Origin: Gracilaria domingensis
Lineage: Eukaryota > Rhodophyta > Florideophyceae > Gracilariales > Gracilariaceae
Direction of reading: 5' to 3'
Assembly: GCA_022539475.1 (NCBI GenBank)
Contig: VCMS01000014.1
Coordinates: forward strand, 62,001-126,000
Length of the DNA: 64,000 nucleotides
Numbering within the stretch: the first letter of the stretch is position 1; each line of letters begins with the position of its first letter. The position numbers and the translations under genes were made by a program. The notes beneath the pieces were generated by a model, which saw only the letters and a list, made by a program, of their open reading frames with translations, was not told the DNA's origin and did no database searches. Of this stretch, positions 1-41,600 are shown in pieces.

Positions 1-3000
1 ACTGTTCTCCTGCGCAGCCAAATCTGCATCATACGCCGCTCGAGCGACAATATCCGAAGCTAGTTCACTTCTCTGAAGAAGGAACTGATACGCAGTACGC
101 CCAATCGTTGCGACTGCGGACGACAAGATCCCTTTTGAAAAGTGACTTTTCGCAACAGACGGATTCTGTTCGCCGTCGACACGACCATCATTCACCTCAG
201 AGGCACCAGATTCCAAAGTACGAATGGGTGCAAGGCTGTTCTCTCTCGCATTACTAGACTGATGTTGAACGATGCCTGCCAATGTTTCATACGGTTCGTC
301 CTCCAAAATGCTCGAGTCCCGAATCCCTGGGCTTGCCGTATACCACGAGAAGCGGTCAGATGGAGTTTCTGCGTAATTTCTGATCCCTGGTCTCGGCCGA
401 AACGTCGTCCAAGGTGTTTGAAATACCTCGTGTTCCGCTCCTGGTGATGATTGGTCGATGGAACGTTTCAACAAATGGGAACTCGGAGTTTGTTGATTTT
501 GAACCAAAGGCTCCCGGTCTTCCATCGTGTCTATCAGACTACTTCTGCTTATGGCTTGTGGACTGTTCTCGCTGGCGGTTGGGTCAATCCTGGCACCCAC
601 ATCCGGGAATGCATCTACTTCAGTTGGCAATTCGTCGTGGGTTTTCTCAGTCCTCATTCCGTGCTCATGTGAGAGCATCGCTTGCACATACTCATCAATT
701 TTCTTCAAGTGACTCGGAAGAAGTACCATTGCCTTTCCTACATCTTCCAGAGATTTTGAACACAACCGATAGCCTTTCAAGGCTTCTTCATTTTCCTCTT
801 GCGTGTTGTAGAGTCCACCTTTTGAAGCCAAAATATCCTCGGAGGGGGCGAGCGACTTTCTGCTCCAGAACTCGCCCTCCAGCGATTTCGCAAACCTTTC
901 TTTCCTGCGCACCAGGTTTTCATGCTCACAGCGAGCTAAGAAACCACGAACAGCACTTTGCACCAACACAGCGCTATCCTTGTCGTTCATTGCTCTTTTC
1001 CTAACCTGAAACGCTTTGTAGTTGGAGAAAATCACCTTCGCCGCCCTCTCCTTGCGTGTCTCTTCGCTGTCAATGCCAGCAGATCGAGTACTGGAGCTAC
1101 CCCCAACTCCATCCGACGGTGTCGTCTTTGAGTGCCCCAAAGGCGTCCCCACAGCGATAGGGCTGCATTCCTTACTGTTTGCAACTTGAGATGTAAGAGG
1201 GGACGAAAGGTCAACTGATGCTACATGAACGCTTGGCATGTCCTCGTCCTCCAGACCGTATCTCTCATCAGCAAGAGTGGTCCCGCTGTCTTCTGAGAGC
1301 TGAGAACTTGGCGTCAGCGAAGTGCTTCTTCCAAACAGTCCCATATCTACATTCCTCGCAGACGGCGATTCTGTGTAGCTAAAGTCATCCCAGTCTTCGG
1401 CAAACTGATGCACATACTCTAGATTCTCTTTCTCGTTTCTGCCCATTTGAGCTCTGTTGAATATATAGGCCGTCATGAGAACCATCAGACGCCCAAACGA
1501 TTCTTCCTTGAGCTCCGAAATAAACGCCGGCGCAAGCGAAGCCTTTGCCGAAATCGAAAGGCTCGGCATGGCGCCAAGCCGCTCACAAGCATTCTGGAAC
1601 TGCGCGATATTGCTCTGAACAATTTCCAACTCTTTCAACGAGTCCTGTTCTTCTCGTAGTTCAGCTGGGGGCACCCGAATAATAGCGTCCATATCCAGTG
1701 CATGAGGATGAAGGTGGTTCAACATGATACACAAAACCACGCAGTCCCGAAAACTTTCAGTAAAGTCCACGACCTTGATCCTGTGAATCCCACAAACCGC
1801 AGCGCACCACATCAGCAGCTTGTGAATGCAGCTTTTGTCCGACTGTTCATATATAACCAATCTGCTGGGACTCCTGATGCTCGGGCTAAGCTCCTGAAAA
1901 GCTCCAGGCGAGCTGCACCATGTCGCATCCGCAGCTTTGCTTCGAAACTCATTTTGCGCCTCTGCCAGTTTTTCCTGCAGCAATTGCGGGTTGAGAAGCT
2001 TGGCTTCAATCCAGAGCTCCACAATCTGCCAGAGAAGAGCTACTGTTTTGGAAACGTTCCCTTCGATGATATCCTTCACACTTGCATTCCAGTGCACTTT
2101 AGCGCCGAGACGCTTGGATGCGTACGTCTTGATAGAATCCAAGGCCATCATGACATTCAGCGAATACCTGTCCATTCTCTTCATGTCGCTGGTACATGAC
2201 TGTAACCCGTATTTCACTTGCTGCTGCATCTGCGGATCGCCGGTAAGCAAGCCGGCAAGTCGGCATAGCCGAATGCCATCTCGAAGGTCTGTGGAGAGGT
2301 CTCGAACGACAAAGCTACTGCTTCTCTTCCACAGTGGACAGTCATACTCAAGTCTGTAACCGCGGTTGCTCAGAAAGAGATTCAGAGGGGTCGGGTCGGA
2401 CATGCAGATCTTGCTTAGCCTGCCCAGGACCTCTTGCGACTTGTGAACCGATGAGCCAGCTTTGAACAGAGACATGCGAATATTACTGGTCACGTCGCGA
2501 TCCCGGCTCGCCTGGTCCAGTAGCAGCAACAGTAACAGTGCGCGGTGTAATACGAGACCATTTTGTTCAACAGCAGCAACCCCACTCGGCAATACACATG
2601 TGGCGCGAGGGCTCTTCAATGTAAATTGGGAAAGGATTGGCTTCTCTACAGCAAACTGCGTTCGCAAAATGTGGTCAACCAGTTGGTTCAACAATGCGGC
2701 AATGCCCACCCTCTCAGCGGCGTTTTCAGTTTGCTTCAAGATTTGGTCGATCTGAGAGGCAAAGTTGGTGCGGAGTATGACGCTGAGACCCAGAAGGAGC
2801 CACGTCGGGTTGTACGAAAATGTGAGTAGCGAAACAAACTGCTCAAACTTGGATGGTTCAGTCGCCAAATTGATATCTGGACTGAAGGACAAGTTGGCCT
2901 CCCTAACGCGTTTTCCAAGACGACGAACGTCCGTTCTGAAGGTCGTGTCGTTGCAGAAGCGCAGCAACGATGCATAGTTTGCGACAAAGATGTCGGACGT

Positions 3001-3352
3001 TGCAAATGCAGATGCCGGGACATAAGACAGAGACTCTGAGGCGTCACCAAGTTCATGGTTGAGCCAAGCAGTCAGGTCCTCGGCCTGGCGCTGAAGCCAG
3101 ATTTCCGGGTTATCCTCGACATATCGCTTCCTTAGAGAGGGCGTACCTTTTAGTGATGCAATAGAAGGTCGAGCTTGAGACGAACGGCGAAGCGAAGACG
3201 GTGCAAAGGAGCGACTGGTACTCGAAGGGGGAATAGGCGGCAATGGAGTGTGTAGAAGGTCCTTAGAATTTTCATGCGCTGCTGAAGTGGATGATAGAGA
3301 GGGACGAAGCGCTTTAAGATTTCGCGAGGGTAGAGGAGTGGGGAACAGACGT
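1..3352. repeat. Inverted repeat arm A (pairs with 35682-39033)
   Basis: This stretch is the reverse complement of 35682-39033 with constant offset (coordinates sum to 39034), no indels and only a few substitutions seen. The arm continues past the left edge, so its full length is unknown. Homology becomes diffuse abruptly at 3353, inside the coding sequence. Confidence 0.93.
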
Positions 3353-3432
3353 TCCCGGACAGTTTCCGCAGTCAGGGCGTTCGAAGCGCGCCTATCATTC
3401 TCCCCGGCTGATTGGCCGGGCTGATGAAGCAT
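1..3432 (-). CDS. Second ASPM-like spindle protein gene, 5' part (runs off left edge)
   Basis: Reading the minus strand from the ATG at 3432-3430 gives an open frame of exactly 1,144 codons to the window edge. It matches residues 1-1144 of the ASPM-like gene at 35602-41652 without any indel (position x pairs with 39034 minus x). It therefore contains the N-terminal region, both calponin-homology domains (about residues 375-475 and 535-660) and the single IQ motif (about 813-836). The last 870 or so residues lie outside the window. From about 3352 downward the copies are nearly identical. I noticed only a Pro-to-Ser change near codon 56, a synonymous Glu change and a Thr-to-Ala change in the IQ region. 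The first 27 or so codons differ at roughly 16 bases and the leader is strongly diverged. No stop is visible, so this may be a second functional paralog rather than a pseudogene. Confidence 0.85.
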   Translation of the reverse strand, partial: MLHQPGQSAGENDRRASNALTAETVRERLFPTPLPSRNLKALRPSLSSTSAAHENSKDLLHTPLPPIPPSSTSRSFAPSSLRRSSQARPSIASLKGTPSLRKRYVEDNPEIWLQRQAEDLTAWLNHELGDASESLSYVPASAFATSDIFVANYASLLRFCNDTTFRTDVRRLGKRVREANLSFSPDINLATEPSKFEQFVSLLTFSYNPTWLLLGLSVILRTNFASQIDQILKQTENAAERVGIAALLNQLVDHILRTQFAVEKPILSQFTLKSPRATCVLPSGVAAVEQNGLVLHRALLLLLLLDQASRDRDVTSNIRMSLFKAGSSVHKSQEVLGRLSKICMSDPTPLNLFLSNRGYRLEYDCPLWKRSSSFVVRDLSTDLRDGIRLCRLAGLLTGDPQMQQQVKYGLQSCTSDMKRMDRYSLNVMMALDSIKTYASKRLGAKVHWNASVKDIIEGNVSKTVALLWQIVELWIEAKLLNPQLLQEKLAEAQNEFRSKAADATWCSSPGAFQELSPSIRSPSRLVIYEQSDKSCIHKLLMWCAAVCGIHRIKVVDFTESFRDCVVLCIMLNHLHPHALDMDAIIRVPPAELREEQDSLKELEIVQSNIAQFQNACERLGAMPSLSISAKASLAPAFISELKEESFGRLMVLMTAYIFNRAQMGRNEKENLEYVHQFAEDWDDFSYTESPSARNVDMGLFGRSTSLTPSSQLSEDSGTTLADERYGLEDEDMPSVHVASVDLSSPLTSQVANSKECSPIAVGTPLGHSKTTPSDGVGGSSSTRSAGIDSEETRKERAAKVIFSNYKAFQVRKRAMNDKDSAVLVQSAVRGFLARCEHENLVRRKERFAKSLEGEFWSRKSLAPSEDILASKGGLYNTQEENEEALKGYRLCSKSLEDVGKAMVLLPSHLKKIDEYVQAMLSHEHGMRTEKTHDELPTEVDAFPDVGARIDPTASENSPQAISRSSLIDTMEDREPLVQNQQTPSSHLLKRSIDQSSPGAEHEVFQTPWTTFRPRPGIRNYAETPSDRFSWYTASPGIRDSSILEDEPYETLAGIVQHQSSNARENSLAPIRTLESGASEVNDGRVDGEQNPSVAKSHFSKGILSSAVATIGRTAYQFLLQRSELASDIVARAAYDADLAAQENS

Positions 3433-3618
3433 GATGGGCTGAGTCAAAAGCTAACGAGTCGTTCCCCACAGGGATGGGGAGATTGACTGAGGGACCGTAT
3501 GGAATGGGGACGGCGCCAAGGGACACGGAACAAGGAAGGGGTTGTTTAGAAACTGCGGTAACACTTCATTGGTGCGATGTGCATGATCAAGGCGAAGGTA
3601 GTTTTGCCTTTGAAATTG

Positions 3619-3650
3619 TTCCCGCTTGATTTTGGGTTTGAAAATTCAAA
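3619..3650 (-). promoter_or_regulatory. Conserved E2F/CHR-like promoter block of the ASPM-like copy
   Basis: On the minus strand this reads TTTGAATTTTCAAA, then a short spacer with ATCAA, then GCGGGAA. It lies about 190-220 bp upstream of the ATG at 3432. The same arrangement stands about 155-180 bp upstream of the paralog at 35422-35447, although the surrounding leader is diverged. GCGGGAA resembles an E2F/DP site and TTTGAA resembles the CHR element of G2/M genes in other eukaryotes. The regulatory role is inferred from conservation only. Confidence 0.5.
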
Positions 3651-3765
3651 ATGGCGTTCAGAGCTAGAAATGCCGTATCATACCGTAGAGAAATTCCATC
3701 CTACAGATATCCTTGAGGTCTTTTCTGTGCAAAACACGATCACGCGGAAGACATCCGAGCTTCTG

Positions 3766-5354
<1,589 letters not shown>

Positions 5355-5960
5355 GTGGAAGGATGAGCTTGATAGCGACAGTTGGGTACAGGCGGATGGC
5401 GGCGATGAGAGCGCGAGCTTGAGAGATGCGTTGGGCATGGAGGAGCTACGGAAAAACGACAGAGCGTTATCGCATGACGCATGCGCCGGTTTTTGGAATC
5501 AACGCACGTTGATTGGACCATGTATCTCGCATACTCGACCCATTGGGCGATGCGGTCAACGGCGGCGTAGCGCGACGGCAATATTCACATCTTCCTACAC
5601 AGCAAACGCTCGCTGACGGGCCGACCGCGGCCATTCGCAATGGCCCACTACAGATCTTGCTTGTTGCCGGGCAAACGACTTTTCATATCATCCATGGGGC
5701 GGCAGAGTTCGGATCAGCGAGGCAGTGCACTCAGCCGGTGGCGTGCTCTACATGCCAAGGTCTGCTGATCGGGCTGCGTCGCACTCTTGCAGGCGTGCGC
5801 CAACTCGGAGAACAATTCGCGAAGCTGCTTTGGAACGGGGTTTACATTCTATTACAAGGGTAGCTATACTGAAGAGGTTTGTCATGTTAAAAGCAAGCAG
5901 CACATGCTAAGCTGGCAGAGAAATGAAGCAGTTACATATCAGCGCAACAAGCGAGCAAAA
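5355..5960. other. Intergenic: enolase 5' flank and CHMP2 3' flank
   Basis: About 600 bp between the enolase start and the stop of the ESCRT-III gene upstream of it on the same strand. Only short, unrecognisable frames occur. It presumably holds the enolase promoter; I see no clear TATA box, repeat or RNA gene. Confidence 0.6.
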
Positions 5961-7829: not shown

Positions 7830-7836
7830 GTTTGTT

Positions 7837-10412: not shown

Positions 10413-10457
10413 TTTTGGCCCTTATGTTCGGACTAAGGCTTGTTCTGAACCACTGCT

Positions 10458-11843: not shown

Positions 11844-13072
11844 GGTTCATCTTCTTCAGAAGACGTTCTGTTTCTGTGCGCCTCTAGTTTCCGTTCGTAC
11901 ATCTCTTTTGTCATCAAGGCAAATCCGCGACGCCTAAAACTCCAGTTTGATAGTAGAGCGGCTGTTTCGTAAGCGATTGGGAACAAGGACTTCTCAAAGG
12001 GCCATCGTCCTAAAAAGATGCGATACCGGTTGTTAATGTGGCCTATTCCCCATTCATTTACCATTCGTTGAGTACGAATATATCGATTGTACGACACACG
12101 ATGCATCCAGTTTGTGCTTTCGTTTCGCTTAAACGGAACAACAAGTTTCCCATCTCCTCCAAATCCCATGTCCGCCATGCCATGTTGACCATCTTCAAGG
12201 TATTGCTCGGCATGAAGGTACACACTCGAGTTTGTATATAAGGTCCTGTCGCTATCGGCGCCTTTGTCGCTGATCTCTAATCTAATAAACCTACCGTAGA
12301 GGTCACAGTACACAAGAATTGACCAGACGTGGGCCCTCTAATATCCATCGTAAGCCCTTTCTTGTTCGTGATTGTCTACTGGACGCCATCTCTTGGTTTT
12401 GTTGCCGTCAATAAAAAAGACACACTTTGGAAACCCCAGTATGAGACCCTCCATGTCACTCCTTTCCTCAGATAGCGGCCATGAAATCAGTGGTGGTTGG
12501 ATCTCCTTTAATGTTTTGTACAGGGCGAACAAGGCATGTCGAAAGTAGTTTGAAACTGTCCCCGTTGATATGCCATATACATGCCCGTAACGCTGTACTC
12601 CAAGACCGCCTTCGTTTGAGCCACCCAGAATATCAAGTAGTAGGAAAAGCATCTCTTCTGCCGACAAACGTCGTCGTCGAGGGACACGGTTAGGTAGTGT
12701 ATGTTCATTTCGAACGTTGAAAGGTTCCTCCAGGTGGCTCTTTGTAACCGCATACAACTCGTCAAACTCTTCTACGCTGACATGGACTGTGCGTTCAAAG
12801 AGACGATCATCTGGATCCTCCAAACGCATGCATTTGTAAACATGTGATGCAGTACGACGTGCATAGAGCGATTTGACTCCTGCAATCGCGTTGCCCTTGC
12901 CGGGGCCGTTTGTGTCAGATTCCGAGCTATCACCATCGCTGTTTTGGCCATGCTCTTGATTGCGCTTCATGTTCAACATGAGTCCCTGTTGGACCAGCAT
13001 TTCGGTGTGGGACGCAGTCTGCCATATTTCAGGCAGCATGAAGAAAGGAAGAGGTAGTTCTGAGTCTCCCAT
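11840..13072 (-). pseudogene. Harbinger (HARBI1-like) DDE transposase with one in-frame stop
   Basis: The frame from ATG 13072 to TAA 11840 is continuous except for a single TAG at 12340-12338, with 409 sense codons in all. The N-terminal part has a helix-turn-helix-like segment (YGHVYGISTGTVSNYFRHAL). The catalytic domain follows: first Asp in CVFFIDGNK, second in GMADMGFGGDGKLVVPF and the Glu in VNEWGIGHINNRYRIF. The TAG falls right after YDGY, before RAHVW, where the family has its YxGxKxxH stretch. Coding similarity continues in the same frame on both sides. It could be a simple nonsense mutation, making the copy non-autonomous, or a readthrough or strain-specific variant. No intron explains it. 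Confidence 0.8.
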
Positions 13073-18569: not shown

Positions 18570-21131
18570 CTACCCATCATCATCCATTTGCACCACCGGA
18601 TCCCAAACACCTCCACACCCTTGGGCAAATCTCTTCGCACCACCATTATATGCCACAGTAATATTCGCGTTGGGTATACAATCGCGCACCCTGTCGATTG
18701 CGTCAGACTTGAACATGCCGTGAACCTCTAAAGTGCGCAGCGAGGTGCACCATGTGACGATACTATCCAAGCCATCATACGTAAGGTTCTCAGTCCGATC
18801 CTTTAGCGCAAGATGCAAGAATCGATGCCCGCGTCTCCCACACAAAACCTTCACGCCCAAGTCAGTCAGATGCATATCACCTTGTAACATGATATCATCC
18901 AGCTTCGGAAAAGTTCCTAGGGCCCTCATGACATCTTGTGACACGGGCCCAAGACCGATCAAATGCAGTTGCCGCAGCCCTGGAAGATTACCCAGTGCCA
19001 GGATGCCATCCAGAGTGATGTTTCGGCACCCAACGAGTGTGAGCGATCGCAATCGAGAAGAGGCACATGATAAATGTACAGGCGTACGATTCAAGATCGG
19101 ATAACGCGCCACAGGTTTGAAGGAGATCTCTTCCAGACTTTGAGAGCAGCTCAAGTGAGACGCTGCTTCACACGAGATCTTTGGACAATCGGTAATGTGG
19201 ACAGATTGCAACTTTTCGCAAGAGTTGACGAGCTTCTTGACAGCCTCGTCCGTCACCCTCCCGGCTTGAGAGAGATGCAGCAGTTTCAACTTGGAGCGCT
19301 CTTTGAACGAACACAAAGCCTCCATCGACCCGTTTCCAATAAAGAGCATATCCTGCAGACGAAGCTCGCGCAAGTTGGGCAGGTTGGCCAACACGTGCTT
19401 CAAAGGAAGGTCCGTTACGTAGTGGTTGTTGCACAAACGGAGACTTTGCAGCGTGGTGAGGTTTCGCAGCGCAAACGCTGACACGTCGGTAATATAGCGA
19501 GCACGGTCGAGATTGAGCGAGCGCAGGTTAGGCATGCGTGTAACTGCCGTAACGAGAACCTCATCCGTAAGAGTAGAGCGGTGTGACAGGTGGTCCTGCA
19601 GCAGCGCCGGGTGGTAGTTTGGCTCCGGCGGCGCATGATTGTCTTCCGGCGGGTCGTCGGCGTCCTCGCCGTCGCCAGCATGCTCGGGCTGGTGTTCTTC
19701 GCCGTCCTCGCCGTTCCACGCGCCGCCATCCTGCATCTGGTTGAAGTTTTGGATTAGCTGAAGCATCATCTCGTGGGGGTTATCAACCGGAGGCAGAAAC
19801 GGGTCGTGGCCATTCAGCAAGCCATTTTGTTCATGCAGGAACGCGCTGAGGTCCTGGATGGCCTGTTCGATGGGAGCGGGCGGTTCCGACGCAGACTGAG
19901 CGTCGGCGCTGCCATCAACGTCCTCCTCTGGCGGTACTGCGTTTTGGTGCGGCGGCGCTGGCTGCTGCTGCGCAGCATTCGGCACATGCTGCTGCAGCTG
20001 CTGCGCGTTTTCCGCGTCAGCATTGGCACTGGGCGCAACTAGCTGCGCAAGCGGCGCAATCGGCTGATTCGGCTGATTCGGCTGCTGCGCGTGCTCGACG
20101 GCGTGTGCCTCGACAGCAGCTTGATGCGGCGCTGGCGGCGCTGGCGGTGGGGGCGGCGGTGATTGCGGCTGCGGTTCAAACGGATCGATCGGCAGCTCGG
20201 CGCCATCCCACATCGGCAGCAACAAGTTATCGACCGGAAAGTTGTCGGATTCAACTGGTTGCGCCTCCGCTAGCGCAGGCTCCGACAAACCGCCCAGCAC
20301 AGGATAATCGAACGGGTGCTGTTGCGACGGGGCGGGATGCGGCGCATGGGCGTGTGCGAACGCGGCGGCTTCGAACACGTGCGGGGGCAGCGCCAGGTCC
20401 GGAAGTGGGGGTTCCGGCACGTGGTGGGCGTGATGCGCATACATGAGCTGCTGCTGGTGCTGCTGGTGCTGCTGGTAATGCGGCGGCGGCGGCGGCGGTG
20501 GTGCGGGCGCGGCGGGATCAGCGGCGGCGACGGCAGGAAGGGGAGGAGAGGGGGGTGGGGAGTTTTCCGGGGTGGAATCCGGAGTGGCGTCGTCATCCTC
20601 GCCCAGGTCCGGATCCTCCGGGGCGATGAGGAAATTGGGGTGGATGGCGGGCGCGGTGCGTCGGCGCACGCGACGCTCCCAAGGGACGTGGACCTCGAGG
20701 TCGACAATGGAGCGCGAGAAGGACTCGGTGAGGGCGACGAGCGCGCGGTGGGTGAGGCGGCGCGACAAGGAGATCTGGACCTTCTTGAGCTGGGCGCCGA
20801 TGTCGGTGAGGAACTGGAAGAGCGACACGACCTCGACGTCGGACAGCTTGCTGTCCGGGGTGATATTGACGTGTCGGAGCGAGGTGCACGGGCGGAGGGG
20901 GGCCCAGCCCAGCAGCGCGAGGCGCTTGGCGGAAGGGTTGTTGAGCGAGAGCGAGGTGAGGTTGGAGAGGTAGGCGCGGCGGAAGGCGGTGCTGACGGAG
21001 GCGAGGCGCCAGTGGTCGAGCGAGACGGCGGCGGTGGGGTGGTTGTCGCGGCGCTGCGCGCCGGACGCGAAGCGCAGCACGTGCGCGAGCAGGTCCTCCG
21101 GCAGGGAGTTGAGCGCCAGCGGCGACGGCAT
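18570..21131 (-). CDS. F-box and leucine-rich-repeat protein with long Pro/Gln-rich linker
   Basis: 853 aa. The F-box is at about residues 7-55 (LNSLPEDLLAHVLRF, WRLASVSTAFRRAYLSNLTS). The protein then has some LRR-like text, a long disordered section (about 160-500) rich in Pro, Ala, Gln, His and Asp, and C-terminal cysteine-containing-type LRRs (about 520-830; NLRSLNLDRARYITDVSAFA, LQSVHITDCPKISCEAASHL, LRSLTLVGCRNITLDGIL). Such proteins are substrate receptors of SCF (SKP1-cullin-F-box) ubiquitin ligases; the target is unknown. The first 1.6 kb of the gene is extremely GC-rich while the LRR half returns to about the window average. This gradient peaks at the shared promoter with the neighbouring C2H2 gene. 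The start at 21131 is the first Met before the F-box, in a GCCATGC context. Confidence 0.85.
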   Translation of the reverse strand: MPSPLALNSLPEDLLAHVLRFASGAQRRDNHPTAAVSLDHWRLASVSTAFRRAYLSNLTSLSLNNPSAKRLALLGWAPLRPCTSLRHVNITPDSKLSDVEVVSLFQFLTDIGAQLKKVQISLSRRLTHRALVALTESFSRSIVDLEVHVPWERRVRRRTAPAIHPNFLIAPEDPDLGEDDDATPDSTPENSPPPSPPLPAVAAADPAAPAPPPPPPPHYQQHQQHQQQLMYAHHAHHVPEPPLPDLALPPHVFEAAAFAHAHAPHPAPSQQHPFDYPVLGGLSEPALAEAQPVESDNFPVDNLLLPMWDGAELPIDPFEPQPQSPPPPPPAPPAPHQAAVEAHAVEHAQQPNQPNQPIAPLAQLVAPSANADAENAQQLQQHVPNAAQQQPAPPHQNAVPPEEDVDGSADAQSASEPPAPIEQAIQDLSAFLHEQNGLLNGHDPFLPPVDNPHEMMLQLIQNFNQMQDGGAWNGEDGEEHQPEHAGDGEDADDPPEDNHAPPEPNYHPALLQDHLSHRSTLTDEVLVTAVTRMPNLRSLNLDRARYITDVSAFALRNLTTLQSLRLCNNHYVTDLPLKHVLANLPNLRELRLQDMLFIGNGSMEALCSFKERSKLKLLHLSQAGRVTDEAVKKLVNSCEKLQSVHITDCPKISCEAASHLSCSQSLEEISFKPVARYPILNRTPVHLSCASSRLRSLTLVGCRNITLDGILALGNLPGLRQLHLIGLGPVSQDVMRALGTFPKLDDIMLQGDMHLTDLGVKVLCGRRGHRFLHLALKDRTENLTYDGLDSIVTWCTSLRTLEVHGMFKSDAIDRVRDCIPNANITVAYNGGAKRFAQGCGGVWDPVVQMDDDG

Positions 21132-22682
21132 GGCGGGGGCGGCTTGGGGCGGGGAAGGGCGCGAGCGGGGGCGGGGGGCGGGTGAGCGGCAGGGGAAGGG
21201 GGGGAGATGGCGGCGGCGGCTGCGGGCGCGGGGCGCGGGCGCGGGGCGCGGGCGCGGGCGCGGGCGCGGGGGGCGGCTGCTGCGGGCGCGGGGGGGGCGG
21301 GCGCTGGTGGCGGCGGGCGGGCGGCGGCTGCGGGCGCTGGCGGCGCATGTGGCGGCGGAGATTGAATCAAGGCGCGCGCTGCTGAAAATCGGCGCGGCGC
21401 GATGCGCGCGTTTGGATCAAGGAGCGGAAGCGCGCGGCGGCCGGCGCGGCGCGGCGCGCGCGGCGCGCGGAAGCGGGCGCGCCTGACACGTACGAAACAT
21501 AGTGTAATTGCGCGGCGCGACGTGCCGCGCGCACGCAACGCGCGCCGCCGTGACGTGACCCAGCCGCAAGTGCGCGCGCCGGCGGCGGCGGTGGCGGAGG
21601 CGGAGGCGGCGGAGGCGGCGCGCGCACCGGCGGTGGCGGTGGCGGCGGCGGCGGCGCGCGCGGGGGAGGGGGAGGGGGAGGCGGCGGCGGCGCGCGCGGG
21701 CGCGTGGGGGCGGGCCTGGGGTGGGGCGTGGGGGGGCCGGCGCGGCCGGCGCGGCCGGCGCAAAGGAGCCGCTTAGCTGGCGCCAGCGCGCGCGCGCGGC
21801 GGAGCGGCGCGGAAAGGCGGGTCAGCGCTTGACGTCATGCGGCGCACGCGCGCAGCGCGGGCGTCATACGCGCTGACGTCGCCGCCAGTGCAGCGTGTAT
21901 CGGCGGCGCGGCGCGGCGCGGCGCGCGCGCGGCGCGCCACGCCACGCGCGCGCGCGCGCGCGCGCACGCAGCGCGCTTGGCGCGCTTGGCGCGCGCGCGC
22001 GCGCGCACGCAGCGCGCTTGGCGCGCTTGGCGCGCGCGCGCGCGCGCGCGGCGATGACTTGGGGGGCGCGGCGCGCGGCGCGCGGCACGCGGCGCGCGCG
22101 CTTTCCCGCGCCGCGGCCAACGGCGCGCGCACACGTTGCGCTGCGCAGTGCACGGCACGGGCGCGCGCGCGCGGCAGCCGCGGCACAACAAGCCGTTGTG
22201 TCTGCGCGCGGCGCGCGCGTCACGTACGTGACGCCGCCACTGGCGCCACTGGCGGCGGCGCGTCATGGCCGCTGCTGGCGCGCGCGTGCTGCTGCGCGCG
22301 CGCGCGCAGCCGTGCCACGCGCGGCGCTCCGCCGTGTCCGCCAGCGCCACGCGCGCCCAACCGTCCGTCGTGCTGCCCCCCCCGCGCGTCGCTGCCGCCG
22401 CTTTTTCAACCGCCCCCCTTCCCCACTCCCCCCCCCCCTCCCCCCCCCCGCCGCCCGCTGCTCCCTTCCACTCCGCGCTCCTCCTGCCCCTCTTCCCCCC
22501 GCCTCCCCCAATCCGCGTCCGCCTCCTCTCCCTCCCCCCTCTCCTACTTAACGTCTCCGCACCCCCGCTTCCCCCTCCCCTCCCCCCCCCGCTCCGCCCG
22601 CCTCGGCGCTGATCGCCGCGCCACCCCCTACGCCCCCTCTCCTTGTTTTACCGCTTTCCTGCCGCTCTTTCGCTCCCCAGAC
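21132..22682. promoter_or_regulatory. GC-extreme divergent promoter region with (CG)n and 39-bp tandem repeat
   Basis: 1.55 kb between the F-box start and the C2H2 start. The sequence is almost entirely G and C with long CGCG runs. At about 21947-22045 there is a tandem duplication of a roughly 39-bp unit (ACGCAGCGCGCTTGG, then CGCGCTTGG, then CG dinucleotides). Near the C2H2 start it becomes a C-rich pyrimidine tract (22380-22600). Many long frames exist in all phases only because stop codons are depleted. Alternating CG runs could adopt Z-DNA. It probably contains both promoters. Confidence 0.6.
21947..22045. repeat. Tandem GC-rich repeat, unit about 39 bp, with CG dinucleotide runs
   Basis: Two consecutive copies of the same arrangement (ACGCAGCGCGC, TTGG, CGCGC, TTGG, then CG alternation), starting about 21966 and 22005. 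Confidence 0.75.
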
Positions 22683-23972
22683 ATGTCGTGCATGCGCCAT
22701 CTGCTCGACTTCCGCGCGCGCGAGTTCGCAACCTTCCTGCAGACGCGCGCCACCGCCACGGCGTCGCGTCCGCGCGTCAAGCCCGATCCATCCCAACCGC
22801 TCGCCTTCTCGTGCGCGCTGCCGGCGCCGCCCGCGCCGCCGCCCGCGCTGCCGCTGCCGCCGCTGCCCTCGCTGCCGCAGCTGCTGCAGTCGTCGCCGCC
22901 GCTGGCAATGCCGCTGGCGGCGGCGGCCGCCGTCAACACGCTGCGCCCGTCGCCGTCTCGCATGGCGCTCGCCGCCGCGCTGCCGCCGCGCCCCACCGCC
23001 AGGGGCGCCGTCGACAGGCCGCCGCCGCCGCCCGCGCCCACGCCGCCGCTGCCGCCGCCGGCCTCGGGCGCGCGCGGCGGCGGCGGCGGCGGCGCGGAGG
23101 CGCCCATCACGCTGGCGCATGTGACGCCGTTCCCAAAGTGCTACGCGCCGTCGTCGGCCAAGAAGAGGCCGAGGGACAATCAGGACGAGTACGCTCATCA
23201 CGCTGCGAAGAAGTACCGCGATGACAAGTGCTCTGCTGTGGCCGTCACCAGCCCGACGGCCGTGGCCACGGTGCTGACGGCCACGCCGTCGCGTGCGGCG
23301 GCGCTGGCGTCGCGCGCTACCGCCAACGGCACACGCTCTGGTTCGGAGGTGAGTTGAGCATAGCGTTTGTGTGCGCCGATAGCTTTACTAACTGCGTGCT
23401 GATGCATTGCGCTGTGTGTGTGCGTGTGTGTGTGTGTTTTTTGTCTTGCTACGCGCGCGTAGACGGAGGACGGCGATGGCATCAATTCGACGGCGGGCTA
23501 CGAGTGCGATCAATGCCGCGCCAAGTTCTGCCGCAAGCACCACCGCGACCGACACGTGCAGAATATCCACGAGGGACGGCGGCCGTGGACGTGCGAGCAG
23601 TGCGGCTTTGCGTTCCACCAGAAGCCCAACTTGGAACGGCACATCATGACGGTGCACGAGGAGCAGAAGCCGTTCCGCTGCAACGTGTGCGGCGTCTCGT
23701 TTGGACGCAAGGGCGTGCTGAAGAAGCACGTGCAGACGGTGCACGAGCAGAGTCGCAAGTTCGAGTGCGACAAGTGCTCGCTGCACTTTGGACTCAAGTC
23801 GGACCTGAAGCGGCACGTACTGAGCGTGCACCAGAAGCAGCGCCCGTTTGTGTGCGAGACGTGCTCGGCGTCGTTTGGACGCAAGTCGGACCTCAAGCGG
23901 CACACGCTGTCGCTGCACCCGGGCGTGGCGCTGCCGACGCGGAAGCGCGCGTCGCCGGGAAGGCGGGGCTGA
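22683..23972 (+). CDS. Five-finger C2H2 zinc-finger protein, one intron
   Basis: Exon 1 is 22683-23348 and exon 2 is 23463-23972, giving 391 aa. The intron (23349-23462, GTGAGT to TAG) falls after a Glu codon and joins the two frames cleanly. Exon 1 encodes a Pro/Ala-rich low-complexity N-terminus with a possible basic nuclear signal (SAKKRPRDNQ). Exon 2 encodes five consecutive C2H2 fingers starting YECDQCRAKFCRKH, each with C-x2-C and H-x4-H spacing. The linkers are related to EEQKPF and QKQRPF. The arrangement implies a sequence-specific DNA-binding transcription factor. The gene is GC-rich throughout, which explains its Ala/Pro/Arg bias. It is divergent from the F-box gene and shares its CG-rich upstream region. 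Confidence 0.88.
23349..23462 (+). other. Intron of the five-finger C2H2 gene
   Basis: A 114-bp GT-AG intron with donor GTGAGT, a GT-rich and T-rich stretch before the acceptor, and an acceptor ending GCGTAG. Reading through would end after two codons. Confidence 0.88.
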
Positions 23973-24766
23973 GGGGTGGGGGGAGGGAAGGGGCGGGGGA
24001 GTTTTGGGGAAGGGGGGGGGGGGGGTAGGGGTGTGGCGGGGGGGTGAGCCTTGGGCGGAATGTGTGGCAAAGCAGTGCAGCGCGGTTGTAACATGCGCCG
24101 CTTACGTCATGGCGGTTGCGCTTTTTTTTTTTTTGTTTTTTTTTTTTTTTGTTTTTGGAGTTTCGCGTTTCGCGGGAGAAAGGCGCTGCAGCGCACTGCG
24201 CACGGCACTGGCGGCGGGCGGCGGCGGCGGCGGGCGGCGGCGGCGGCGGCGGCCCCGACGGCGGCCGGCACGCGGCGGCGGCGGCGCGGCGGCGGCGCGC
24301 GCAGCGCACCGCGCGCGCACGTGCCGTGCGCTGCGCGCCGCGCCGCCGTGCGTGCGGCTGGGAGGCTTGCGGCTGCCCATTTACAGTCGCGAGAGCGCCG
24401 CTCGCGAGACTGCGCTCTCGCGCGCCGCGCGCCGCCTTGCGAGTGCGCGCGCGCATTACACGTCACGCCGCGCCGCGCCGCGCCGCGCCGCGCGCGCCCC
24501 GCAATTGCAATTGCGCGCGCGCGCCCGCAATTGGCGCGCCGCCGCCCGCCTCCGCCGCGCGCGCCCCTTGTCGCGCGCAGCCGGCGCGTGCGCGCCCGCG
24601 CCCGCGCCCCGCCCGCGCGCAACCGCCGACCCCCCCCCCCCCCCCACCCCCCATACCGCCCCAGCCCATACACCCCTCCCCCCCCCCCCCCCGCCGCCCC
24701 CGCCCGACGCCGCGCGCCCCGCCCGACGCGCACGCGCCCTCGCCCCGCGGTGCCGCCGCGCGCCCC
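23973..24766. promoter_or_regulatory. GC-rich spacer with poly-G, poly-T and poly-C tracts upstream of the polyQ gene
   Basis: About 0.8 kb. It has G-runs (23975-24025), a T-rich block (24121-24151), CGG-rich DNA (24200-24300), an inverted CGCGAGAG/CTCTCGCG pair near 24386-24421 and C-runs (24628-24695). No gene is supportable; it likely contains the C2H2 3' end and the promoter of the next gene. The G- and C-runs could form quadruplex or i-motif structures. Confidence 0.5.
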
Positions 24767-25316
24767 ATGAAGAGGGGCGCGTCCCGCGCGCGCGTCGGCG
24801 CCGTGCCGAAGCGACACCGCCGCTACCGCAACAATGTCGCCGCAAAGTTCTGCGCCGGCGACGCGCACGGCCCGCGCATCCCCGCGCTGCTGCGCCAGTT
24901 CGACATGCAGTGCGCCGTCCACTGCCACCGCAAGTGGCTGCTGCTGCTGCAGACGTCGTGCGAGAAGCAGGGCTGTCTGGTGCGCAACTGCCGCACCGGC
25001 GTCAACTTTGCGCAGACGCACGGCGCCAAGTCGCTCATCCACGCCATCACCATGTTCCTCACCTACTACGTGCCGCGCAAGGTCTGCCTGCGCTCGGACG
25101 ACGAGTGGCGCCAGCTGCTCGCCGCGCTCTACACCTTTCACAACTACTGCGCCCGCATGCGCTACATCAAGGACGATCATGTGCTCACGACCGCGCTCTA
25201 CACGCTGCGCAATTTTCGAATCTGCACCATCCCGCAGCGCATCACCGAGTTGGCCATGGCCCGATATTGGACGCAGCTGGAGCAGCCCCCCGAGCCACAG
25301 CCACCACAACCTCCCG

Positions 25317-25356
<40 letters not shown>

Positions 25357-25845
25357 ACCTCAAGCGCAGCGCGCCGCATCTCCCACTGCCGCTGCCGCTG
25401 CCGCTGCCGCTGCTTCCGACTCTATCAATCACGTGTTTGCCGCCATCACCGCCGCCGTGTACGAGGAGGCCCACGCCGTGCAGCTCGATGCGCACCACCC
25501 CGCGTCGGAGCCTCCCACGCCGCAGCCTCCCACGCCGCAGCCTCCCACGCCGCAGCCTCCCACGCCGCAGCAGCCTCCCGCCCCCTCTGCTGCCTCACCC
25601 ACCGACGCGCAACCTCAAGCGTGCGCAGGTGCCGACCCAACCTCAGCGTCGCAGCAGAACAGCGCAAAATCCGACGTGGAGGGGGCTGCTGCCACCGCTG
25701 AGCTCGTGGAGGGGCTTCAGCAGCAAACATCCGAAGCGCCGCCCGCCAACGAATCAGCGCCGGCCGCGAATGAATCGGCGCCGGCTGCGAATGAATCAGC
25801 GCCGCCGCCAGTGGAAGGGAAGCGCGAGTGGAGCCCTGTGCCCGT

Positions 25846-25884
<39 letters not shown>

Positions 25885-26173
25885 AGACGACGAGTTCAAT
25901 TGCTACAACGCGTTTCTAGGCGGTGATATGCCGCTCATCGTTTCGCAGGTTATGGATGACGGTTGGCTTTTGCGATCGGAGGATTTTGATGTGGATGCCG
26001 AGTATACCAACGCCTTTCTGCACCTTCCACCGGACGTTGCAAAGATGGGAATGCGCGGCATGTCGCTGTCGTGTATTCAGATAGCGCTGCGGCATGGCAT
26101 TTGGAGACCGATTCGGCGTGATGACATATACATTGCAAATGCGTACCCTCCAGATGAAATGTTCTACTACTGA
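24767..26173 (+). CDS. Unrecognised protein with polyQ, PTPQP repeats and polyD tract
   Basis: 468 aa from ATG 24767; the frame is open further upstream but only because the DNA is GC-rich. A basic start (MKRGASRARVGAVPKRHRR) leads to an ordered domain at about residues 25-175. This contains several Cys and His residues (QCAVHCHRKWLLLLQTSC, CLVRNCRTGVNF, IHAITMFLTYYVP, LYTFHNYCARMRYIKDDH). A low-complexity section follows: a polyQ run (about 184-198), polyA, four PPTPQ units (about 247-268), three NESAPAA-type units (about 328-345) and a run of 12 or so Asp (about 361-373). A second ordered region (about 380-468) ends at DEMFYY. No family is recognised; nuclear regulatory function is a guess. 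GC content falls toward the 3' end. Confidence 0.75.
25318..25360 (+). repeat. (CAG)n tract encoding polyglutamine
   Basis: About 11 CAG codons followed by CAA codons, coding for Gln within the polyQ gene. Confidence 0.95.
25505..25572 (+). repeat. 15-bp coding minisatellite (PPTPQ units)
   Basis: Four near-perfect CCTCCCACGCCGCAG units within the polyQ/polyD gene. Confidence 0.95.
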
Positions 26174-32682: not shown

Positions 32683-32720
32683 AAACCACTCGTTCGTCCG
32701 TAAATTCATTCCGTTGCATT

Positions 32721-33373: not shown

Positions 33374-33411
33374 GCAATACCCCCGTATTGCAATACCCGT
33401 ATTGCAATACC
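33374..33411. repeat. Tandem GTATTGCAATAC palindromes
   Basis: Two perfect 12-bp palindromes separated by CC, preceded by a partial third (GCAATACCCCC). They are followed by a CAATC repeat (about 33410-33422). Confidence 0.85.
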
Positions 33412-33766: not shown

Positions 33767-35005
33767 TCAGTTGATATACCCTTTCTGAACGCACAACTCC
33801 GCGTTTAGAAGACTTCCTCCCGCTGCTCCGACAATGGTATTATGCCCAAACACTACGAGCCTGACATCAAAGACATTACACTCGCGAACGCGACCAACAG
33901 TAACAGTATATCCATTACCAACCATTCGATCCATTCTGGGTTGAGGACGATCTTTGGCCGGATGATATACAATATCATGCTGAGGAGCTGAAGGCAGCCC
34001 AAGATCACTTGTAATACTAGGGTATGACTTGATGGCATTCACCACATCCTCTGGTGTAGCTTGAGATCTGAGCTTGAGCGACAAACATTCTGTGTGGCCG
34101 TCTAGGACATGCACGCGATTGCACATTGCTGATATATTGAATTCGGCAGGCACAAAGGAACCATCACCAACTGCACCAAAGATCTTCTTGGATTCGGTTT
34201 GCATCTTTTCTTCCTCGCTTCCAATGAAAGGAACTACGTTATCAAGTATATCCATACCTGAAAGGCCTGGGTATCCAGCACCACTAATTGCCTGCATGGT
34301 GCTAACGATGACCTTTTCTATGCCAAACTTTTCCATGATGGGTTTGATTCCAATAGCCATAGCTGTGGTGGAGCAGTTGGCATTGGTAATAATAAAACCA
34401 GAGTCATATCCACGGTTCTTGCGCTGTATCGGAATCATATCCAAATGGGAGAGATTAACAGGCGGGATTAAAATCGGGACGTCAGGATCCATGCGATGAC
34501 TCTTGGCATTGGAGAAAACAGCACGGCCAGCTTTGGCGAAGGCGTCCTCGACATCTCCCGCAAAAGTGGCATCCAAACCAGAGAATACAATCTTGACATC
34601 ATCAAAAGCAGGATCATCTGGAGTACATTCCGAAACGACGATGTCTGCCATTTGGCCAGGAATCGGGACAGCTTGCTTCCAGCTAACGGCATCAGAGTAC
34701 TTCTTGCCGGCTGATCTGGGAGAAGCGCCAAGCGCCTTCACCTCGAACCACGGATGGTTATCAAGGAGCTGCATAAACCGCTGACCGACGGAACCGGTCG
34801 CACCCAGCACTGCGACACCAATCTTCTCGGAACGTGCCGCAACCATGTTCCATGGTGCAGATCGTTTCTGTGGAGTAGGCGGGACGACCGCCACACGACG
34901 AACGAACGACGATGAAAACACGGGGCGACTCGAGGTGGAGCATCGACGCGTGTCAACAGCGGCACGAGACGAAAACGGCGCAAGTGAGACGAAGCAAGGA
35001 GCCAT
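33767..35005 (-). CDS. Aspartate-semialdehyde dehydrogenase, plastid-targeted, fungal/archaeal-type
   Basis: Reduces aspartyl phosphate to aspartate semialdehyde with NADPH, the branch point to Lys, Thr, Met and Ile. 412 aa. A roughly 55-residue Ser/Arg-rich leader beginning MAPCFVSLAPFSSR precedes the Rossmann start KIGVAVLGATGSVGQRFMQL. Visible sites are VFSGLDATFAGDVE, NAKSHRMDPDVPILIPPVN, the catalytic Cys in IITNANCSTTAMA (about residue 211), ISGAGYPGLSG, and the His in VLDGHTECLSL. The motif spelling is nearer the yeast HOM2/archaeal class than the short bacterial class. The leader suggests plastid import, consistent with aspartate-family synthesis there. No intron. The start at 35005 is the first Met of the leader. 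Confidence 0.92.
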   Translation of the reverse strand: MAPCFVSLAPFSSRAAVDTRRCSTSSRPVFSSSFVRRVAVVPPTPQKRSAPWNMVAARSEKIGVAVLGATGSVGQRFMQLLDNHPWFEVKALGASPRSAGKKYSDAVSWKQAVPIPGQMADIVVSECTPDDPAFDDVKIVFSGLDATFAGDVEDAFAKAGRAVFSNAKSHRMDPDVPILIPPVNLSHLDMIPIQRKNRGYDSGFIITNANCSTTAMAIGIKPIMEKFGIEKVIVSTMQAISGAGYPGLSGMDILDNVVPFIGSEEEKMQTESKKIFGAVGDGSFVPAEFNISAMCNRVHVLDGHTECLSLKLRSQATPEDVVNAIKSYPSITSDLGLPSAPQHDIVYHPAKDRPQPRMDRMVGNGYTVTVGRVRECNVFDVRLVVFGHNTIVGAAGGSLLNAELCVQKGYIN

Positions 35006-35601
35006 TGGAAGGACAATGAGGAACTAAAGCCGAAGCAAAGGAATAATGGATGAACGGAAGAAAAGAGAGAGTGCGGACGGGCTGGAGATGCTGAACAACA
35101 ATGCGTGAAAGAGTTGAAGTGTGAATTGTACGTGGCCGTTAAGAACCCAACCGTCGTCGCGTAAGGAAGCTCGGGCACGATCAGATCGCCAATAGCCAGC
35201 AAAGCCAGCGCAGATCAGTACACCGAACAAAAAATCTGAAGTTGTGCAGATCGACTTCGTCGGCGTGTGGCCCGATTAGCGATCGCTTTACCCTGGGTGC
35301 GCGGCACGCGTCACGCTCTAAAATAAACATTCGCCATTCCGCGGCGTTGCTGGCGCGCATGCAACTTCCGTTTCTGGTTTGTCTGTTGCATCATTGCACT
35401 TCATTGCCGGCTCAAGCGCTCTTTGAATTTTCAAAATCAAACGGGAATCAACTCACAGTCAAACTTTTAACGTCAAAGTTACTATCCCTTCTAAGAAACT
35501 TCCTCGCTCCGAGTCCCTTGTCATCCCTATTCTATCCTTCTTCATTGCCGCTCATCACATTTTCGCGGCAACATCAGTTCGCTGCTTCGCCTCAGCCCCA
35601 C
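35006..35601. promoter_or_regulatory. Divergent promoter region, ASADH / ASPM-like
   Basis: About 600 bp between outward-facing starts. It contains the E2F/CHR-like block at 35422-35447 and CTCAGCCCCAC directly before the ATG, also found before the copy at 3432. The ASPM frame is open into this region back to 35242, but the paralog comparison places the start at 35602. Confidence 0.6.
35422..35447 (+). promoter_or_regulatory. Conserved E2F/CHR-like promoter block of the ASPM-like gene
   Basis: TTTGAATTTTCAAA, then ATCAA and ACGGGAA, about 155-180 bp before the ATG. It is a short high-identity island shared with the leader of the inverted copy (3619-3650), while neighbouring sequence has diverged. 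This is good evidence that it is under constraint; the factor is unknown. Confidence 0.55.
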
Positions 35602-38600
35602 ATGTTTCATCAGACCGGCCAACCAACTGGCGAGAACAATCGGCGCGCTTCGAACGCCCTACCTCCGGCAACTGTCCGAAAGCGTCTGTTCCCCACTCCT
35701 CTACCCTCGCGAAATCTTAAAGCGCTTCGTCCCTCTCTATCATCCACTTCAGCAGCGCATGAAAATCCTAAGGACCTTCTACACACTCCATTGCCGCCTA
35801 TTCCCCCTTCGAGTACCAGTCGCTCCTTTGCACCGTCTTCGCTTCGCCGTTCGTCTCAAGCTCGACCTTCTATTGCATCACTAAAAGGTACGCCCTCTCT
35901 AAGGAAGCGATATGTCGAGGATAACCCGGAAATCTGGCTTCAGCGCCAGGCCGAGGACCTGACTGCTTGGCTCAACCATGAACTTGGTGACGCCTCAGAG
36001 TCTCTGTCTTATGTCCCGGCATCTGCATTTGCAACGTCCGACATCTTTGTCGCAAACTATGCATCGTTGCTGCGCTTCTGCAACGACACGACCTTCAGAA
36101 CGGACGTTCGTCGTCTTGGAAAACGCGTTAGGGAGGCCAACTTGTCCTTCAGTCCAGATATCAATTTGGCGACTGAACCATCCAAGTTTGAGCAGTTTGT
36201 TTCGCTACTCACATTTTCGTACAACCCGACGTGGCTCCTTCTGGGTCTCAGCGTCATACTCCGCACCAACTTTGCCTCTCAGATCGACCAAATCTTGAAG
36301 CAAACTGAAAACGCCGCTGAGAGGGTGGGCATTGCCGCATTGTTGAACCAACTGGTTGACCACATTTTGCGAACGCAGTTTGCTGTAGAGAAGCCAATCC
36401 TTTCCCAATTTACATTGAAGAGCCCTCGCGCCACATGTGTATTGCCGAGTGGGGTTGCTGCTGTTGAACAAAATGGTCTCGTATTACACCGCGCACTGTT
36501 ACTGTTGCTGCTACTGGACCAGGCGAGCCGGGATCGCGACGTGACCAGTAATATTCGCATGTCTCTGTTCAAAGCTGGCTCATCGGTTCACAAGTCGCAA
36601 GAGGTCCTGGGCAGGCTAAGCAAGATCTGCATGTCCGACCCGACCCCTCTGAATCTCTTTCTGAGCAACCGCGGTTACAGACTTGAGTATGACTGTCCAC
36701 TGTGGAAGAGAAGCAGTAGCTTTGTCGTTCGAGACCTCTCCACAGACCTTCGAGATGGCATTCGGCTATGCCGACTTGCCGGCTTGCTTACCGGCGATCC
36801 GCAGATGCAGCAGCAAGTGAAATACGGGTTACAGTCATGTACCAGCGACATGAAGAGAATGGACAGGTATTCGCTGAATGTCATGATGGCCTTGGATTCT
36901 ATCAAGACGTACGCATCCAAGCGTCTCGGCGCTAAAGTGCACTGGAATGCAAGTGTGAAGGATATCATCGAAGGGAACGTTTCCAAAACAGTAGCTCTTC
37001 TCTGGCAGATTGTGGAACTCTGGATTGAAGCCAAGCTTCTCAACCCGCAATTGCTGCAGGAAAAACTGGCAGAGGCGCAAAATGAGTTTCGAAGCAAAGC
37101 TGCGGATGCGACATGGTGCAGCTCGCCTGGAGCTTTTCAGGAGCTTAGCCCGAGCATCAGGAGTCCCAGCAGATTGGTTATATATGAACAGTCGGACAAA
37201 AGCTGCATTCACAAGCTGCTGATGTGGTGCGCTGCGGTTTGTGGGATTCACAGGATCAAGGTCGTGGACTTTACTGAAAGTTTTCGGGACTGCGTGGTTT
37301 TGTGTATCATGTTGAACCACCTTCATCCTCATGCACTGGATATGGACGCTATTATTCGGGTGCCCCCAGCTGAACTACGAGAAGAACAGGACTCGTTGAA
37401 AGAGTTGGAAATTGTTCAGAGCAATATCGCGCAGTTCCAGAATGCTTGTGAGCGGCTTGGCGCCATGCCGAGCCTTTCGATTTCGGCAAAGGCTTCGCTT
37501 GCGCCGGCGTTTATTTCGGAGCTCAAGGAAGAATCGTTTGGGCGTCTGATGGTTCTCATGACGGCCTATATATTCAACAGAGCTCAAATGGGCAGAAACG
37601 AGAAAGAGAATCTAGAGTATGTGCATCAGTTTGCCGAAGACTGGGATGACTTTAGCTACACAGAATCGCCGTCTGCGAGGAATGTAGATATGGGACTGTT
37701 TGGAAGAAGCACTTCGCTGACGCCAAGTTCTCAGCTCTCAGAAGACAGCGGGACCACTCTTGCTGATGAGAGATACGGTCTGGAGGACGAGGACATGCCA
37801 AGCGTTCATGTAGCATCAGTTGACCTTTCGTCCCCTCTTACATCTCAAGTTGCAAACAGTAAGGAATGCAGCCCTATCGCTGTGGGGACGCCTTTGGGGC
37901 ACTCAAAGACGACACCGTCGGATGGAGTTGGGGGTAGCTCCAGTACTCGATCTGCTGGCATTGACAGCGAAGAGACACGCAAGGAGAGGGCGGCGAAGGT
38001 GATTTTCTCCAACTACAAAGCGTTTCAGGTTAGGAAAAGAACAATGAACGACAAGGATAGCGCTGTGTTGGTGCAAAGTGCTGTTCGTGGTTTCTTAGCT
38101 CGCTGTGAGCATGAAAACCTGGTGCGCAGGAAAGAAAGGTTTGCGAAATCGCTGGAGGGCGAGTTCTGGAGCAGAAAGTCGCTCGCCCCCTCCGAGGATA
38201 TTTTGGCTTCAAAAGGTGGACTCTACAACACGCAAGAGGAAAATGAAGAAGCCTTGAAAGGCTATCGGTTGTGTTCAAAATCTCTGGAAGATGTAGGAAA
38301 GGCAATGGTACTTCTTCCGAGTCACTTGAAGAAAATTGATGAGTATGTGCAAGCGATGCTCTCACATGAGCACGGAATGAGGACTGAGAAAACCCACGAC
38401 GAATTGCCAACTGAAGTAGATGCATTCCCGGATGTGGGTGCCAGGATTGACCCAACCGCCAGCGAGAACAGTCCACAAGCCATAAGCAGAAGTAGTCTGA
38501 TAGACACGATGGAAGACCGGGAGCCTTTGGTTCAAAATCAACAAACTCCGAGTTCCCATTTGTTGAAACGTTCCATCGACCAATCATCACCAGGAGCGGA

Positions 38601-41600
38601 ACACGAGGTATTTCAAACACCTTGGACGACGTTTCGGCCGAGACCAGGGATCAGAAATTACGCAGAAACTCCATCTGACCGCTTCTCGTGGTATACGGCA
38701 AGCCCAGGGATTCGGGACTCGAGCATTTTGGAGGACGAACCGTATGAAACATTGGCAGGCATCGTTCAACATCAGTCTAGTAATGCGAGAGAGAACAGCC
38801 TTGCACCCATTCGTACTTTGGAATCTGGTGCCTCTGAGGTGAATGATGGTCGTGTCGACGGCGAACAGAATCCGTCTGTTGCGAAAAGTCACTTTTCAAA
38901 AGGGATCTTGTCGTCCGCAGTCGCAACGATTGGGCGTACTGCGTATCAGTTCCTTCTTCAGAGAAGTGAACTAGCTTCGGATATTGTCGCTCGAGCGGCG
39001 TATGATGCAGATTTGGCTGCGCAGGAGAACAGTCAGAGCCAGAGGAAACTACGGGACACATTGGTTTCAAATGAAACAACGCAGGGAGTTGTGCACGGTG
39101 TGCTTCCCGGCAGCAGGTCCGAGTTTGATGTCGGAATGGGGCACGAAAACGATGGAGGCGATATACCCAGTGCAGACGAGAGCAATAGACAAGAAGAGTT
39201 TGCCCGGCCGGACCCACTTGGCCAAGACTCGGACTCTTCGACGGATTCTGGAGACCCAGGTGATGAGCTCCTTCGTTTCACGGGAAGCGACGACATTGAA
39301 AGTGAGGGAGTTACAAACTCGCAGTATAATGCGGAAAGCGTGAACCCTGTCCAGAACAATGTTCCAGAGACAACTGTTGTAGCATCTGAGAAGCTTGTTT
39401 CCGAGGACACCTTCAAGACGGACTTGGAAGATGTGGGGGAGCCTGCGAGCCCAACGGGTAGTAACGGAGGCTTTTGCCCTAATTCCGACACAAGTCTCTT
39501 CGTTGATTCCCCGCCCGATGGCAAAGTGCAAATACACGCCCATACACCTTGTTCTCCCAGTACAAGCCACCTCTTAGATCATGATCCTGTGAAAGACAGT
39601 GCCCGGGAAAGTATCGGAGGTTTTTCTGAGCAGGAACGTTGCGGTGACGATGTGCAGACAGCACATACTGACATGGTTGGAGAAACTGGTGTTGAAGAAG
39701 AAATGAGAACATGTATAGAAGAAGCGTTGTCCTCGGCAGAAGCTGCGTTCGAAAACCATATGGAACGGACACAAGCCAGGCGCGATTTCGACGCACGAAG
39801 AAGAATAGAGATAGACATGCGATACAAGGAGCTTGATGAAGCTGGTATTGCGTCCATGAAGAGATTGAAGCATGAACAAGAAAGACTCGAAGCCTCAAGG
39901 AAAGGACTTGATGAAAGATTCATGACTGCAGAGCTTCCCGTTTCGATTGACTTTGAGTCTGAGGAATGCGTCGCTCTTCTTGACCATGATTCAAGTTCAG
40001 AATCCAGCAGTCCCCTTGCAGCAAATGAAGTGGAACACGAGCTTGACGCTCTGGACGCAATGCTTTCGGTTAGGCGCACAGAGGATGAGGGCATTGACAG
40101 AGAGCTGCTCGAACTGGAATGTGAGCGAGACTTGATCTGCAGAAAGTTGAACAATTCTATTGAAAGTTTGTCGCAGACGATATTGACAGCCTCTTGTTTC
40201 TTGGCTGAGCGAAGCTACACAGAGTACATGAATGAAATTATGCTGAAAAGGGTACAAGAACGGCTCAACTCCGAACAAGAGCGTCATGCGTTGCATGAAT
40301 TGTTCCAGAACTCCATGTGGAGTTACAGACTGAAGCTGGCTCGGATTGAAGGAGACAAAAAGGAACTGGAAGATGCTGTTGCTTCCTTGGATGAGAGACT
40401 GGAAGATACCGGATCTAACGTTTTCCAACTACTTGAGGCCGACATTGATTCCAAACTTATGCTCATTGATCACGCAGAGGAAAGAGAGAGCGAGCGAGTG
40501 AAGGCGGCGTTGCTTATGCGCGATCAAACCAGGGAAAAGCTGTTGGACTCCGAAAGACTGATACAGTCCTATCAGGAACTACATATTCAAGACGTCGAGG
40601 AGGAACTCCAAAGTGGAGCAGAAGGTTGTGATTCCACCGCATTTGAGCAGCACGAATCGAACGACAGCGTTAAAGAGACTCGTGATTCTTTACCACAGTA
40701 TGCGGAGAGGGATGCTTTGGAGATGTCAGAGCGAAATGTGTCGACTCCGGATGGTTCCTTGAGAGCTTTCACCACATCTCAGAGTGAACGCCCACCAACA
40801 TCTTGTGGAAATGAAGAGAAGGACAGTGGAGAATTGGAGAACATTGAGTGGGACAAGGATCGCGATGATCGAGTAGACGTCCTTCCCGATCGTGACAATC
40901 GTGAGAGCTTTGAGAATCTTGCTGTCCAGCTAAGTGCCTTCAACATCAATTCTTCCAGGAAATCTGTTGAAAACGTCATGAGCAATCCGAGTTCGGCAAG
41001 CAAACTTCGGGCCCTCATTCGCAGGATTTCGACGGCAACCGCGTCGCCCATGCATCGTTTTTCATCGTCGACGAAGCAAAATGGTCCTGCGCGCCAGAGC
41101 CTTGTTTGTCAAAACATCATTAGGACAGTTCTCGTGGTGATGCGATACCTGCACAGGACTCCGACACATATCCGGCTCATTCACCTCGGTATGCGAATTG
41201 TTCACGATTTCTGTGAGGTACAAAACCGTGTAGCAGATCTTATCTCTGTCGAGAACTGCATCGATGTGCTCGTTACCTGTGCCCAATTCTATCGAGATCA
41301 AGAGAATATCTTGATGTCAGCAGTTTCCATTCTGAAGAGCGTTTCAGACGACGACAGTGGTTTGGTATTGATGAGGAAAAGTCGTCCTGCGTTGAGAAGA
41401 TTGGAAGCGATTAACCATCTCCTTCACACAGCCGCCGAGCAAGAAAGAAAGAATCGGTACCGAGTTCAATATGCCAAAATGATTGTGGAACAAGTTCGAC
41501 TAAGTAGAACTGGACGAAAGAGGCATCATCTGCTTCGGGATCACCTTGCGGCCGCTGAGCGCACCAATGCATTGCCGGAACTGATAATCCGTCCATCGCA

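Follow-up and report, generated by a model that had tools for sequence, protein, structure and literature searches.

An inverted pair of putatively ASPM-like genes in Gracilaria domingensis with near-identical bodies and diverged 5′ ends

The window analysed here, a stretch of 64,000 nucleotides from contig VCMS01000014.1 of the red alga Gracilaria domingensis, carries two related genes, copies A and B, which lie about 32 kb apart in inverted orientation, with the genes pointing outward and their 5′ ends inward. Within the coding sequence common to both copies, the first 27 codons are strongly diverged and the remainder is nearly identical, the transition between both parts being abrupt. On balance, we favour a history in which an old inverted duplication was followed, much later, by homogenisation of the gene body through ectopic gene conversion.

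Layout of the pair and the boundary within the coding region

Copy A is encoded on the minus strand and runs from an ATG at 3432 to beyond base 1, where its open reading frame is cut by the window edge. Copy B is a plus-strand reading frame of 2016 amino acids (35602..41652) that contains CH domains and a putative IQ motif. Base 1 represents the edge of the window and no biological boundary, as copy A runs on outside and copy B extends to 41652. As the preliminary description had it, window positions 1–3352 align with the reverse complement of 35682–39033 without indels; the number of substitutions, given there as about three, was found to be four (window positions 993, 2017, 3267 and 3352). 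A repeat search with a minimum length of 60 bases returned no direct families and three inverted pairs, including the gene pair itself.

Over the 3432 coding bases common to A and B, 19 differences were counted, with 16 located in the first 81 bases and three in the other 3351. The abrupt drop in identity reported earlier at 3353/35681, with roughly 16 differences in 80 coding bases, was reproduced closely: 15 of the 80 coding bases between 3353 and the ATG at 3432 differ, or 16 of 81 when position 3352 is counted. The best change point was placed after codon 27, with a log-likelihood ratio of 53.4 versus a permutation maximum of 15.3 (20,000 of 20,000 permutations beaten). The diverged coding block is short, comprising 81 bases at 3352..3432 (minus strand) in copy A and at 35602..35682 (plus strand) in copy B; it is free of indels, and the frames are open in both copies. 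The adjoining near-identical core covers 1..3351 (minus strand) in copy A, where the window edge cuts it, and 35683..39033 (plus strand) in copy B, up to the limit of the visible partner, and it shows three differences in 3351 aligned bases with no indels.

This contrast was also evident when synonymous and non-synonymous changes were considered separately. In the first 27 codons there are seven synonymous differences in 20.7 sites and nine non-synonymous differences in 60.3 sites (dS 0.45, a value that rests on seven changes, and dN 0.17), compared with one synonymous difference in 777 sites and two non-synonymous differences in 2574 sites in the next 1117 codons, which form the core (dS 0.0013, dN 0.0008). 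The difference is highly significant both for synonymous sites (Fisher p = 2e-11, rounding the 20.7 sites to 21) and for all sites (16/81 versus 3/3351; p = 2e-24). Silent divergence is about 350-fold lower in the core than at the start, and at least about 60-fold lower if the 95% upper limit of the silent core rate (0.0072) is used and 0.45 is taken as exact; the core rate for all sites is 0.0009, with 95% limits of 0.0002–0.0026.

At the protein level, 11 of the 1144 visible residues differ between A and B, nine of them within the first 27. That these first 27 codons are under constraint is suggested by their excess of silent changes, which is not significant (one-sided p = 0.09), and agrees with the absence of indels in this block versus 16 gap runs in the leaders.

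Leaders, neighbouring genes and the rest of the window

The leaders of both copies, located at 3433..3650 (minus strand) in A and at 35422..35601 (plus strand) in B, are homologous in spite of their divergence. Local alignment of the upstream regions (470 bases for A and 590 for B) yielded a score of 43, whereas none of 300 Markov shuffles exceeded 35, with the match beginning 218 bases 5′ of the ATG in A and 180 bases in B. When the leaders were aligned by parts, the nearest 200 bases scored 35 (shuffle maximum, 31) and bases 100–250 scored 42 (shuffle maximum, 28). The first 100 bases next to the ATG, taken by themselves, gave no excess (score 24; mean 16.5 and maximum 28 in 300 shuffles), and no homology was found at bases 200–470 upstream of A (score 18 versus a shuffle mean of 18.4). 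A global alignment running from where the local match begins down to the ATG comprised 131 matches and 36 mismatches (78% over 167 aligned columns) together with 16 gap runs, in line with the earlier characterisation of the leaders as recognisably homologous, heavily diverged and variable in length. On its inner side and as far as visible, the old duplicated unit therefore consists of the gene plus some 200 leader bases.

A block common to both leaders, TTTGAATTTT...CAAAATCAA.CGGGAA, is located at 3650–3619 (minus strand) and 35422–35447 (plus strand). The GCGGGAA present in the copy A leader resembles an E2F site, for which it is a candidate. A scan of 3300–4000 for bacterial promoters and terminators gave none of either, and as it relies on bacterial models it is uninformative for a eukaryote.

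The inner neighbours of the two copies are unrelated. Upstream of copy A and in the same direction lies an enolase gene (3767..5438, minus strand), assigned by a family match that does not reach its end within the main ORF (positions 2–376 of 425). Its last exon, which is similar to an enolase C-terminus, was recognised by eye after an apparent GT-AG intron, with the stop at 3767–3769 and a distance of 337 bases from stop to copy A ATG. The divergent upstream neighbour of copy B matches the aspartate-semialdehyde dehydrogenase family (33767..35005, minus strand). When 27 of the 35 ORFs in the window were used as tblastn queries with a cut-off of E 1e-3 (the eight left out being copy A, six overlapping frames of a G+C-rich island and an extended form of the final ORF), copy B was the only one to hit a further site in the window, namely copy A. 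A bigger duplicated block containing the inner neighbours was rejected on the basis of this search.

With regard to the sequence between both copies, the G+C-rich island mentioned above extends over 19501–26000 and reaches up to 84% per 500-base bin (21501–22000), with G+C contents of 43–54% in 2-kb bins outside 20–26 kb. It overlaps part of a leucine-rich-repeat ORF (18570–21131, minus strand), and it contains an 87-base tandem unit at 23700–23897, by eye similar to C2H2 zinc-finger coding sequence, as well as the two other inverted pairs from the repeat search, of 87 and 72 bases at 70–72%. An ORF at 12338–13072 matched weakly the helix-turn-helix of DDE transposases (PF13613; E 0.00033, 20.6 bits versus a cut-off of 27). 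On the far side of copy B, a sugar-related run of genes occupies 56081–62655, comprising an O-fucosyltransferase-like ORF, another with matches to glycosyltransferase families 2 and 92, and a cytidylyltransferase whose nearest models are those of KDO cytidylyltransferases, with scores below their curated cut-offs.

Domain content of the two copies

The preliminary description had named both genes ASPM-like, and the domain searches bore this out in part. In copy B, the Pfam CH family was matched in two stretches (E 5.2e-15, 56 bits versus a cut-off of 26), and the Pfam IQ family was matched at residues 819–837 just below its cut-off (E 0.00055, 19.9 bits versus 20.3); the corresponding IQ match in copy A, with 21.1 bits, is above it. 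An IQ motif pattern was found at 808 and 824 of copy B. The part of the picture that did not emerge was the N-terminal ASH (Hydin-like) domain, which was not one of the five Pfam families listed for copy B up to an E-value of 1, a search that a diverged ASH domain could escape. An NCBIfam search with copy B returned no families.

In a PDB sequence search, the best of 23 matches up to an E-value of 1 was 5nl7, a putative calponin homology domain protein (E 1.6e-6). The single-sequence structure model of the CH-region piece reached a mean pLDDT of 40, which is too weak for naming a fold. That of the C-terminal piece was all-helical, with a mean pLDDT of 57, and this weak model gave 801 PDB matches up to an E-value of 10, none of them at 0.001 or better.

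According to PMC10047693, the marks of Asp/ASPM proteins comprise CH domains, IQ motifs and an ASH domain at the N-terminus, to which Heat/Armadillo-like repeats at the C-terminus probably belong as well. Copies A and B share with them the CH domains, followed by a putative IQ motif. They differ with regard to the ASH domain, undetected in copy B by the Pfam search, and to the C-terminal repeats, which the all-helical model and its PDB matches did not confirm. They also differ in the number of IQ motifs, with one Pfam match and two motif-like sites in copy B, whereas the Drosophila protein has 24 such motifs and the human one 81. Judged from the sequence, ASPM-like would appear to be a fair working label for both copies. 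Red algae were unmentioned in the literature on ASPM, among the matches listed.

History of the pair and its implications

In the history that we favour, an ancestral gene with CH domains, a putative IQ motif and a leader of about 200 bases would have been duplicated long ago into two inverted sites with different inner neighbours, after which the 5′ ends would have diverged. Ectopic gene conversion, a mechanism that we infer, would much later have replaced the body of one gene by that of its partner, through a single long tract or through several, with the limit close to codon 27. An old duplication combined with recent overwriting is proposed because a recent duplication alone leaves no such diverged start, and an old one alone no such similarity at silent sites. 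This is also the history put forward in the preliminary description, and the roughly 350-fold synonymous contrast across one point argues for its main outline; as to the process of overwriting, one boundary fits gene conversion, replication through the gene and renewed duplication alike. The further claim that neither a simple recent duplication nor an assembly collapse would give this pattern holds for the former, in view of the same contrast between start and body, and was too strong for the latter.

Ectopic gene conversion is the simplest overwriting process, with a close precedent in the amylase (Amy) duplicates of Drosophila, for which concerted evolution limited to the coding sequence is described in PMC3924832. 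Unlike in Amy, the boundary visible between A and B cuts the coding sequence at about codon 27, a distance of 32 kb separates the copies, and they were compared in one species. In the palindromes of the Y chromosome, inverted arms are held at 99.9% identity or more by conversion (PMC3403216); that case concerns entire arms, tens to hundreds of kb in length, in contrast to a single gene body here, with inner ends that are old and diverged. No direct precedent for gene conversion of red-algal duplicated genes was found among the papers listed, the two mentions in PMC7423979 concerning GC content. Likewise, no relative that might show clustering by species was confirmed among 17 viral-contig and eight genome-contig pattern matches, which come from viral and prokaryotic sets and have little bearing on a eukaryotic gene. 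We regard the pattern as the outcome of a known process, ordinary in kind and instructive in detail.

For a single ordinary conversion event, a tract of 3.3 kb or more would be long, which counts against gene conversion, and only the inner end of the tract lies within the window, as the near-identity in copy A reaches window base 1. The shortness of the diverged coding block and the nearest 100 leader bases, which on their own stay within the range of the 300 shuffles, weigh in the same direction. It is the cut of copy A where the near-identical stretch is still running that lends some weight to the main rival, an assembly error. In this unlikely case, assembly would have passed from the genuine 5′ end of A over to B sequence, and the core of A would be unreal or a mixture. 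A contig passing in this manner into B reads would look much the same. However, the three core differences, all of them substitutions without indels and one lying within the core at 84 bases from the boundary, suggest that the core of A has reads of its own, although allelic variants could mimic these differences.

We also consider it rather improbable that a 5′ break in the old paralogue was followed by invasion of the other copy and break-induced replication through the gene and beyond, or that a second duplication was inserted into the old paralogue. Both would be consistent with the single visible boundary and with near-identity over at least 3.3 kb up to the window edge; they need a longer event than a conversion confined to the gene, with nothing decisive to be held against them. 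Hypermutation of the 5′ end after one recent duplication, which the sharp boundary would fit, is highly improbable and was rejected, since the 16 coding changes in the first 81 bases are of several kinds (10 transitions and 6 transversions) and, together with the 16 gap runs of the leaders, have the appearance of ordinary long-term divergence with no single signature. An old duplication alone, with purifying selection at the protein level preserving the similarity of the core, accounts for the high protein identity only and was rejected as next to impossible because the silent core sites are near-identical too, with one difference in 777.

Any functional difference between A and B would most likely reside in expression or in the N-terminus, because most of the differences between the visible proteins fall within the first 27 residues and the leaders are not the same either. 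Since the arms are inverted and near-identical, crossing-over between them could in principle reverse the orientation of the 32-kb interval, so that each body would receive the 5′ end of the other. We consider it very doubtful that the pair operates as an invertible switch, in which a flip would exchange leader and N-terminus and conversion would keep the bodies interchangeable.

The pair of G. domingensis provides a clean and sharply bounded example of genes composed of two parts of very different apparent age. If old duplication with recent gene conversion is confirmed, it would serve as a warning against dating duplicates by their coding bodies, and it would offer two natural genes whose bodies are almost the same and whose leaders and N-termini differ, a pair that would be useful for comparing 5′ function.
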